NCBI GenBank assembly: GCA_021414205.1 | Contig: JAIOOW010000002.1 | Location: 279,062-340,170 of the forward strand | Origin: Candidatus Anderseniibacteriota bacterium | GTDB lineage: Bacteria; Patescibacteriota; Andersenbacteria; UBA10190 | DNA length: 61,109 nt | Direction of reading: 5' to 3' | In this document: positions 10,958 to 16,094 of the stretch, one piece after another | Position numbering within the stretch: the stretch's first letter is position 1 | How the letters are laid out: each line of letters begins with the position of its first letter | Notes under the pieces: generated by a model | Databases searched by the model: none | Seen by the model: the letters and a program-made list of their open reading frames with translations, nothing else | Told to the model about the DNA's origin: nothing | Position numbers and translations under genes: made by a program

Positions 10958-11860
10958 ATGAATGCAGTGTTAGGTTCACCAAGCACAGCTGCCCCGAGCG
11001 TGGCACCTCGACGCTCACGAGTACGTCGATCACAAACAGCTATCGAGCAATTCGAGCAAAGACTTGATTATCGGTATCCGCTGTTTGGAACAATCGCACG
11101 CCGTCGACGCATCATTTCCGCACGACATATCGGCAACGTCGCCACCTGGATTACAAGCACGGTAAAAAGCAAAGTGACATCCGCCAACATGCGACACGTA
11201 ATCGACGTGTGTGCATCACAGCATCCAACGTGGTTCGACAACTTGCTATTCGTGCGAATGGAACAACGACTGCATGGTCTTGAGCCAGGAATCCGCCTGT
11301 TCGTGGAAACACGAAACTTTGACCAGATCCCCGACCCGATGATTCCACGAAATGAACGCAACAAATTCACCGCGGCAATCATGAACGAACCCAATCGGTC
11401 GTTTGCATATCTCGAGCCGCTGTGGATCACAGTCGATGGCAAACAAGTGGGTGCAACAGTCGAAGATTTCATCATGTTCTCCCGCGGCCAAATGATGCTG
11501 CTCAGAAACGCAATCGGAGCATCCAACCGGCAACTGCTGTTCAGCAAAGTTGACGCAGCAATTGAAATGGTTGCAACCCTTGCGGCGCTCAGCGTGATTG
11601 TCCCTACCAAATTTGCGTTCGACGCTGTCGTACGCATGGGCAGAACCGCATCTCACATGTACACGGAAGGGCTGGAACTCGGGCGAGATCTCTTGAGATC
11701 ATCCACCGAATATCTCCATCCACTCAACTTGCGCACCATCGATCCAGGAACATACACGATGCTGTTTGCATCCGATCCGTTCATCGTGTTCGGAACTCCT
11801 GAGATGAGCGAGCTGTTCGGCGACGAACTCCCGCTGGCACTTGTAGCTGATTGGGAATAG
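10958..11860 (+). CDS. hypothetical protein (SD-led orphan)
   Basis: 300-aa ORF, GAAAGGA SD, private terminator. Confidence 0.7.
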   Translation: MNAVLGSPSTAAPSVAPRRSRVRRSQTAIEQFEQRLDYRYPLFGTIARRRRIISARHIGNVATWITSTVKSKVTSANMRHVIDVCASQHPTWFDNLLFVRMEQRLHGLEPGIRLFVETRNFDQIPDPMIPRNERNKFTAAIMNEPNRSFAYLEPLWITVDGKQVGATVEDFIMFSRGQMMLLRNAIGASNRQLLFSKVDAAIEMVATLAALSVIVPTKFAFDAVVRMGRTASHMYTEGLELGRDLLRSSTEYLHPLNLRTIDPGTYTMLFASDPFIVFGTPEMSELFGDELPLALVADWE

Positions 11861-12050: not shown

Positions 12051-12467
12051 ATGCCAACACTCGAAATCGTCGAACAAACGTACGATGCGTACGAGCTCAT
12101 GGTTCTCCAAGCCCATGTCGACTTTTACCGCCTTATACCTGAAGCACGTTCCCTGACGGGATTCAGTATGCGCCACCAGCTTCTCTGCGCAAACGCTTGC
12201 GAGCGACTGGCCAAACGAGGAATGCTAACGATACAAACAATCCTTAGCGAGATCGTTTGGAAAACAATCGATATTGATCCCAGCGATGAGCTGTATCAGC
12301 TTGCACTGACTCACGGACAATTCGAACGAGTAGATCTCACCAATCCCCCGCTAATTCGATTCATAACGGAAACAAAATTCCCTGGTTTCCAAGCTCGGCT
12401 TACCGAGGAATCCGTTCCCGAAGTTGTCAGGTTATTCAAAGCTGGAATTATCAAAAAGAACGACTGA
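12051..12467 (+). CDS. hypothetical protein (SD-led orphan)
   Basis: AAAGGG upstream of ATG; TTGACA at 11966; private terminator. Confidence 0.65.
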   Translation: MPTLEIVEQTYDAYELMVLQAHVDFYRLIPEARSLTGFSMRHQLLCANACERLAKRGMLTIQTILSEIVWKTIDIDPSDELYQLALTHGQFERVDLTNPPLIRFITETKFPGFQARLTEESVPEVVRLFKAGIIKKND

Positions 12468-13623: not shown

Positions 13624-13941
13624 CTACAATCGAACCCCAAAGCGCTTCGCCTTGCCGTTTGTAAGTCGCCTGCTGCGAGTTGATTTCTGCTTATCCCTGG
13701 ATAGCAACCTGGCCAAATCATCGCGCCTTTGAGCAAGAATCCTCATACTGTTCACAAACTTACTCCTGAGCACATCAGCTTCCGGTGCATTTAAGAATTC
13801 TGTCACAGTACGAACGAGAGTATCGGCAGGCCCACGAATATTCCCGATCGTTTTTTGGGTTGCATGTTCCAATTTATGGATTACATCATCGCAAGAGAAT
13901 GTGAGCTCGGAAATCTGTGAGTAATCAACCTGAGTCTTCAC
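13624..13941 (-). CDS. hypothetical protein, GTG start
   Basis: GGAGAGATCAC-GTG; promoter TTGACA-N18-TACAGT upstream; CGCGTGG...CCACGCG TTTTTATTTG terminator downstream. Confidence 0.65.
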   Translation of the reverse strand: MKTQVDYSQISELTFSCDDVIHKLEHATQKTIGNIRGPADTLVRTVTEFLNAPEADVLRSKFVNSMRILAQRRDDLARLLSRDKQKSTRSRRLTNGKAKRFGVRL

Positions 13942-13987
13942 GTGATCTCTCCTATAAAGAACCTTCGAAAACTTTCCGACCAAAGAT

Positions 13988-14078: not shown

Positions 14079-14894
14079 TCACTCGAACGCAGGATTGGTT
14101 GCGGCTTCCAGTTTCACATATTCGCGAAACTGCTTACCTGACATTTGGAGCACTTGCCCGCGAAGCGCCAGAGAAGCAATCATGCGCGTCGTCATGATTT
14201 GCTGCCGCATAAGGAGAGGAACTTGATCCTGCCTCATGCACATCTCCAACTTCTGCTGAAGCTGTTGCGACATAACCTGTCTCATATGCATTCCCGCAGG
14301 CTCGCGCGCAATCCGCTGCATCGTTGCATCGTACTCCCTGCGATCGGCTTCATCCGTAAGCTGTGGGCGGCAATCCTCTCTGCAAAGATTGTACCCCCAC
14401 ACCATATCGAAGAATTCACCGATAGCCTCCACGTTCGCATCCGCCATCGGACCGACCGTATTCACGAGCGTTCGAGAACGTTCGATATCGCGACCGTCCA
14501 CTCGAAAACGCTGGCGAGTGGTTGTTTTAAGTAACGGCTGCCCGCGGAAATCAATCTGCTTGCCACGAAGCGCGAATTGAGATCGCGTTTCATTGAACGT
14601 AGATTCCACTTTTGGGAAGTCGAGCATCGTAATCTCGATCGCCAGACGGCCATCCCGGCCGTTGTGATCCGGAATGATCTCGACGTACTTCAGATCTGGG
14701 TCAACGGGAAAATGATCGCGGCGGCATACGTATACATGTGGTGAAATGCGCGCGAACATAGCATCGCTTGCCACAACGGCAGACGCAACATCTGACCACA
14801 TCGGAATATCGATCGTAAAATTGCCATCCACAAACGCGAAGCAATTTTCGATCATCGCCTTCCACGGCCGGCTTTCATACATTGGACGACTCAT
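14079..14894 (-). CDS. hypothetical protein with sigma-54 AID-like C-terminus
   Basis: 271-aa ORF; C-terminal QQIMTTRMIASLALRGQVLQMSGKQFREYVKLEAATNPAFE; GGAG SD; private terminator CACGG...CCGTG TTTTTTATTTG. Confidence 0.7.
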   Translation of the reverse strand: MSRPMYESRPWKAMIENCFAFVDGNFTIDIPMWSDVASAVVASDAMFARISPHVYVCRRDHFPVDPDLKYVEIIPDHNGRDGRLAIEITMLDFPKVESTFNETRSQFALRGKQIDFRGQPLLKTTTRQRFRVDGRDIERSRTLVNTVGPMADANVEAIGEFFDMVWGYNLCREDCRPQLTDEADRREYDATMQRIAREPAGMHMRQVMSQQLQQKLEMCMRQDQVPLLMRQQIMTTRMIASLALRGQVLQMSGKQFREYVKLEAATNPAFE

Positions 14895-14941
14895 GAAAAT
14901 GCTCCGCTTACTAGAGGGATATTGTAAAGGGTGCTCGTTCT

Positions 14942-14970
14942 TATGTACTTTTATTTATAGTATTTGTCAA
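14942..14970 (-). promoter_or_regulatory. sigma70-type promoter
   Basis: TTGACA - N17 - TACATA on the minus strand, ~40-nt leader to 14894. Confidence 0.75.
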
Positions 14971-14982
14971 GATATACGGCAC

Positions 14983-15576
14983 TTACCGATTCTTCGCAGT
15001 CCACAAATTATCCCACCAAGCGGATGGAGCCGTGGTGTAAATAGCTTTGCCGATTTCTTTGGATTTTTTATGCGTTAATTTTTGCAATTGCGCATTGCCT
15101 TTTTGTTTTCCTTTTCCATTCAGCCAGATGCTTGCCTCTTTATTGCCTTGCCACTCGTATTCGCGAAGGAGCAGCACTTGATCGAGCAAATCTGCATCTT
15201 TGGCAATGGTGGATTCTTTTGATTCCCGGATTTCGTATTCATCGATCAACTCTTTCAAATCCGGAAACGGCAATGTGCCTAATTGATCTGCGTGCACTTC
15301 ATCTTCAAATAATTTCGCATAGCGCTTGTGCACCCAATTGTGATCGCCCGTGCGCGCCTCGGCCATATCATGAATAAGCGCCATCAGCGTTGTTTTGTAC
15401 GGATCGGCACCTTCTTCTTTTGCCAGAATCCACGCAATGATTGCCACTCGATAGGAGTGCGAGGCAATGGTATCCGAATCGTCATCCGTTAACAGCATCT
15501 GCCGATGCATGCGGGGCAATTTACGCATCGTGCCGATTTCAAATAAGAAGTTCGCTATTCGTTTGTATTTATTCAT
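14983..15576 (-). CDS. HD-domain hydrolase (YfbR/5'-deoxynucleotidase-like)
   Basis: SHSYRVAIIAWILA, LIHDMAEARTGD, KDADLLDQ. N-terminal extension in the track ORF rejected. Confidence 0.88.
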   Translation of the reverse strand: MNKYKRIANFLFEIGTMRKLPRMHRQMLLTDDDSDTIASHSYRVAIIAWILAKEEGADPYKTTLMALIHDMAEARTGDHNWVHKRYAKLFEDEVHADQLGTLPFPDLKELIDEYEIRESKESTIAKDADLLDQVLLLREYEWQGNKEASIWLNGKGKQKGNAQLQKLTHKKSKEIGKAIYTTAPSAWWDNLWTAKNR

Positions 15577-15626
15577 ATCCAAACTATATCCCTGGCAATA
15601 CGCTTTATACAAGGTATAGTAGATGT

Positions 15627-16094
15627 ATGTTACAAGAAGGCACCAAGGCTCCGGATTTTTCCGCCCAAGACCAATTTGAAAAAACGCATACGCTTGCAGA
15701 CTACGCGGGCAAGTGGCTGATACTGTATTTTTACCCGAAAGACGACACCCCAGGATGCACCAAAGAGGCATGCGCCATCCGCGATGCATGGACGGATTTT
15801 TCCGATGCAAAAATCAGCGTACTTGGCGTAAGCAAAGATTCTGTTGCAAGTCATATGAAATTTGCGGAAAAATACTCCCTGCCATTTCCACTCCTTGCAG
15901 ATGAAGACAGAAAGATATTACAAGCATACGAAGCGGAGGGCGAGAAAAACTTATACGGAAAGATGCACTTCGGCACGCTCAGGATTACATACTTAATCAA
16001 CCCGGATGGCGTGATTGCAAAAGCATACCCGAACGTAAAACCGGATAAGCACGCCAAGCAGATTTTAGAAGACTTTACGAGTTTGAAGTCTTAA
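15627..16094 (+). CDS. peroxiredoxin (BCP/AhpC-TSA family)
   Basis: GTKAPDFSAQDQ, YFYPKDDTPGCTKEACAIRD, GVSKDSVASHMKFAEKYSLPFPLLAD; TATAGT 6 nt before ATG. Confidence 0.95.
   Translation: MLQEGTKAPDFSAQDQFEKTHTLADYAGKWLILYFYPKDDTPGCTKEACAIRDAWTDFSDAKISVLGVSKDSVASHMKFAEKYSLPFPLLADEDRKILQAYEAEGEKNLYGKMHFGTLRITYLINPDGVIAKAYPNVKPDKHAKQILEDFTSLKS

Follow-up and report, generated by a model that had tools for sequence, protein, structure and literature searches.

A 271-residue orphan protein encoded in the window, the whole 61,109-nucleotide stretch of Candidatus Anderseniibacteriota DNA that we analysed, ends in a conserved tail with a statistically real resemblance to region I of sigma-54 (RpoN), and we tentatively favor reading this tail as a divergent, C-terminal, region-I-like helical hook that has been reused as a docking element. 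As a switch within sigma-54, region I imposes the dependence on ATP-driven activators. It consists of two helices forming a hook (PMC7057263) and touches core RNA polymerase in the sigma-54 holoenzyme (PMC12316311), and the AID is the part of sigma-54 that interacts with activators (PMC7057263, PMC12316311). The features discussed below are collected in Table 1.

Table 1. Features of the 271-aa gene, its protein and its flanking signals (positions in the window).
Feature	Positions	Strand	Basis
Gene for 271-aa orphan protein with AID-like tail	14079..14894	minus	ORF; homologues L008 and L009
Body, residues 1-200, predicted alpha/beta domain	14295..14894	minus	AlphaFold2
First AID-like block, residues 201-217 (GMHMRQVMSQQLQQKLE)	14244..14294	minus	Profile alignment
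Segment between AID-like blocks, residues 218-247	14154..14243	minus	Alignments; L008 profile split
Stretch matched by Sigma54_AID, residues 231-271 (profile 9-45 of 46)	14082..14204	minus	hmmscan
Intrinsic terminator right after the stop codon	14045..14068	minus	10-bp stem, 4-nt loop, T-run
Possible own promoter	14941..14970	minus	Read from sequence

The open reading frame ends exactly as a first-pass annotation of this DNA had written it, and it is a real gene, because the protein is conserved in two other genera, an SD-like GGAG at 14905-14902 provides a ribosome-binding site, and an intrinsic terminator follows. The possible promoter combines a perfect TTGACA (14970-14965) with TACATA (14946-14941) at a spacing of 18 nt; its -10 element is weak, and it is absent from the list returned by the promoter scan. 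Upstream, an 88-nt gap separates the gene from an HD-domain gene (14983-15810, HD_3), and the same-strand gene that follows downstream comes with a separate promoter-like site (TTGACA-18-TACAGT, 14017-13988). With a promoter-like site of its own, a terminator and a separate promoter-like site downstream, the gene looks like a single-gene unit, probably read by an ordinary sigma-70-type polymerase as far as these signals go. The downstream gene (13624-13983, minus strand) encodes a small orphan protein whose start is probably a GTG near 13941 that follows an AGGAG; for this protein, searches of Pfam, NCBIfam and PHROG gave no family match apart from weak PHROGs. Two further proteins are encoded on the plus strand: that at 10958-11860 has no Pfam or NCBIfam match, and the sole match in those databases for that at 12051-12467 is FilR1_middle, below cut-off.

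Sigma54_AID (PF00309) is the sole Pfam family matched anywhere in the 271-aa protein. With the whole protein, hmmscan gives E 5.5e-6 and 26.6 bits, where the curated cut-off is 23.8, and with the 68-aa tail alone E 1.1e-7. A homologue from a genome of the same taxonomic family, L008, also matches (E 6.9e-5 for the whole protein; 5.5e-7 and 29.8 bits for the tail), and these two are the only true proteins above the AID cut-off in 380 genomes of the phylum (per-genome E 1.1e-5 and 9.7e-5). Sub-threshold matches elsewhere in the phylum were discarded as further proteins with the same tail, being internal, in tiny ORFs or interrupted by stops, and the match in L007, which lies in a 31-aa frame, arose by chance. 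We also built a profile independent of Pfam from nine RpoN AIDs (E. coli, Legionella, two rhizobia, Burkholderia, Sphingomonas, Acetoanaerobium, Bacteroides and a viral contig), in which the first 71 residues of the E. coli protein, AID included, are identical to a PDB chain. Across 1563 ORFs, true RpoNs scored 47-82 bits on this profile, L008 18.1 and the window protein 14.7, while the best unrelated ORF reached 5.3. Taken alone, the window tail scored 19.7 bits against 7.0 for the best of 1000 shuffles, and the L008 tail 19.5 against 8.6; none of the 3x1000 shuffles came near the two matching tails, nor did any of five altered tails (four shuffles and a reversal) give an AID match. Finally, comparing the tail family with RpoN AIDs by hhalign gave a probability of 80 and E 1.4e-5, over the second block or helix. 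The resemblance that the first-pass annotation had noticed is thus upheld and is shared with at least one homologue at 33% identity, and the profile check it proposed yielded an above-cut-off hmmscan hit together with the hhalign probability of 80 rather than no match. Its C-terminal placement on an unrelated body also holds, as the AID-like stretch is residues 231-271 of 271.

The details of the match are less tidy. In L008 the AID profile splits, in order, into two blocks about 27 residues apart: AGIEQRQVQQQVMSMQLKMALEQL, corresponding to RpoN AID profile positions 3-26, and QVLRMSQAELAAYVRRVATSNPV, corresponding to positions 24-46. The window protein has both blocks, at residues 201-217 and at 248-271 (VLQMSGKQFREYVKLEAATNPAFE), the first of them matching the RpoN profile weakly (1.3 bits, versus 10.0 bits in L008). 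In the window protein, where the insert contains an MT-like helix of its own, the profile consequently favors a first block closer by, at 231-244, and includes a 4-residue insertion. The second block follows the pattern L(Q/R)MSxxx(F/L)...NPxxE, with spacing identical to the LQLS...NPLLE of RpoN. The spacing claimed earlier stands in one half: L249-Q250 to N267-P268 equals L26-Q27 to N44-P45 of E. coli RpoN, but the MT-to-LQ stretch is four residues longer, and it is there that HMMER places the insertion. The intervening segment carries a family-conserved QxQxP (Q222, Q224 and P226) that is absent from RpoN. Identity over the C-terminal ~70 aa is 38%, 44% and 53% in the three pairs of family members, against 32%, 25% and 23% for the body, which makes the tail the most constrained part of the family, whatever its role.

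A serious rival, and one we consider quite possible, is that the likeness arose by convergence, the tail being an ordinary Q/M-rich amphipathic helical region that mediates self-association or packs onto the body, so that the resemblance to the AID would be limited to a helix-turn-helix pattern plus a terminal NPxxE. The tail composition is skewed in this direction, with an abundance of Q (17%), M (13%), L and R, which favors helix-on-helix resemblance. The third family member, L009, has no AID match with either Pfam or our own profile although its body and tail are homologous, the scores of the other two are far below those of true RpoN AIDs, and the 380 genomes hold no other AID-tailed protein. 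The segment between the AID-like blocks is conserved as strongly as the blocks themselves, so the job of the tail need not be that of region I. Furthermore, the counterpart of the first helix differs between the two matching proteins (231-244 in the window protein by Pfam, 200-223 in L008), an ambiguity that a clean homologue would not show. Apart from the count in the 380 genomes, these points also weigh against a docking hook. Against convergence, shuffled sequences of the same composition never match the AID, two homologues only 33% identical overall both do, L008 matches both AID halves in order, and the hhalign probability is 80%. The missing match in L009, the first-helix ambiguity and the low bit scores nevertheless keep convergence a close contender.

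Structure prediction is compatible with a hook. AlphaFold2, run with three sequences only, models the body with fair confidence (pLDDT mostly 75-93 as far as about residue 170, lower beyond) and predicts tail helices at 208-219, 228-244 and 253-266 with low confidence (tail pLDDT 34-68), which is a further point against the docking reading; the L008 model resembles it but has longer helices. The predicted helices 228-244 and 253-266 lie in suitable places and would fit the two-helix hook of region I. The body has no Pfam, NCBIfam, PHROG, PADLOC or significant PDB match, and Foldseek finds nothing for it at E <= 0.001. Biotin protein ligases are among the top Foldseek matches of both the window and L008 models, hinting at a biotin/lipoate protein ligase fold, and YbjN is the top match of the L008 model, but these leads all have E >= 0.01 and TM-scores of 0.14-0.42 among the top matches, and we set aside the biotin protein ligase, PylRS and YbjN folds as weak and non-significant.

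Whatever the origin of its tail, the protein is not a sigma-54. The earlier reading that no sigma-54 core is present agrees with the Pfam scan of the 271-aa protein, which found neither the core-binding domain (CBD, PF04963) nor the DNA-binding domain (DBD) with its RpoN box (PF04552). The AID of RpoN is N-terminal and leads into region II/III, whereas the AID-like stretch here is C-terminal; it differs as well in the 4-residue insertion (window protein) or the ~27-residue segment between halves (L008). Truncated RpoN proteins that lack a domain do occur, for example in some Neisseria (PMC12316311), and these are, as the tail described here may be, sigma-54 pieces found outside a full sigma-54. 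They retain the CBD and/or DBD, however, as opposed to an AID-like piece alone on an unrelated body. One such protein, L029:1438-2340 from genome G112, is the sole sigma-54 DBD match above cut-off in the 380 genomes, a 300-aa truncated RpoN-like protein with Sigma54_DBD at E 6.4e-8 and no AID or CBD match.

In the genome that carries the window, no sigma-54 DBD (PF04552) scores above cut-off; the one weak match lies among glycosyltransferase-like ORFs. Nor did we find a bacterial enhancer-binding protein (bEBP): PF00158 gives only unspecific AAA+ matches in this genome, as it does in all 14 controls, and the two hits, judged by reading their sequences, look like ClpC (two AAA modules in a frame of 883 aa) and, in a frame of 523 aa, a protein of the ComM type. 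A search for AAA+ genes bearing GAFTGA was also negative, the sole GAFTGA-like DNA match lying outside any AAA+ gene. Because the genome lacks both a detectable sigma-54 DBD and a bEBP, a circuit linking the AID to an activator is unlikely in this cell, and the bEBP binding suggested by the first-pass annotation finds no support here. It is conceivable that the tail is a true AID working with bEBPs of the same cell, for instance as a sigma-54 decoy, as the AID is the activator-interacting part of sigma-54 (PMC7057263, PMC12316311), but these genome searches strongly disfavor such a scheme and we regard it as very improbable.

Given that neither sigma-54 nor a bEBP is detectable, the tail would most likely be a plain docking hook and not an activator-controlled switch. 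In the model that we propose, the protein would have two parts: residues up to about 200 would form an alpha/beta body and those from about 201 to 271 a conserved helical tail at the C-terminus, the latter possibly a divergent relative of sigma-54 region I with an extra helical segment between its halves. As partner we would first suspect core RNA polymerase, since region I contacts it within the sigma-54 holoenzyme, and the body may contribute regulation or ligand sensing. That the tail shares ancestry with region I, that it docks and which partner it docks onto are all points that we infer. The fullest version of this idea, in which a region I hook was detached from sigma-54, split by an insert and became, through fusion, the C-terminal extension of an unrelated domain to yield a new RNA-polymerase-binding regulator in a sigma-54-free lineage, strikes us as unlikely. 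If true, it would provide a free-standing region I-like hook in a cell without sigma-54, showing that this element lends itself to reuse on its own, and it would supply a minimal setting in which to ask what region I binds without an activator. If the likeness is instead convergent, the protein teaches useful caution with short helical profile matches.

The family is rare. Searches of 59 relatives and of 380 genomes spanning the phylum recovered two homologues in all, so that the protein is present in 3/380 phylum genomes and, within the class, in 3/13. The closest, L008:7962-8798 (genome G008, public contig NZCO01000017.1), is 33-35% identical, and L009:7974-8708 (genome G012, same order, public contig CAIZMI010000053.1) is 30% identical. 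The gene is absent from the three congeners searched; in one of these, G001, the surroundings of the shared HD gene are rearranged, leaving no clean empty-site comparison. The gene neighborhoods of the three members are entirely different, with zwf and gnd-like genes beside the L008 copy and glycosyltransferases and an exonuclease beside the L009 copy. The gene is thus patchy and fast-evolving, and it is either mobile or often lost. A phage or plasmid origin was considered and rejected, as viral contigs, phages and plasmids hold no homologue and there is no PHROG or PADLOC match. Our literature search on sigma-54 in Patescibacteria or CPR turned up no paper with a bearing on the 271-aa protein.

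This distribution also bears on another alternative, that the protein is a region I mimic acting in the cells of a different bacterium that this reduced-genome organism lives on, where it would disturb that bacterium's sigma-54 system. The small genome (0.91 Mb, 100% complete), a target missing from that genome, and a patchy, fast-evolving gene with no shared neighborhood would all suit such a scenario. But the N-terminus, by reading, has no obvious signal peptide, there is no secretion neighborhood, and the gene setting is an ordinary sigma-70-like one; we give this alternative very little credence and keep to the docking hook as our working interpretation.

Full-length sigma-54, from AID through RpoN box, does occur on viral contigs (L027:2501-3967 and L026:707-2170), the former contig being the 52-kb IMGVR_UViG_3300015360_000006. 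Matches of these proteins to phage records are weak, with 32% identity for the best-ranked one, and host contamination may affect several of the records. The viral sigma-54 genes sit between AAA_24/PDDEXK and DUF669 genes, an arrangement typical of a phage recombination module.
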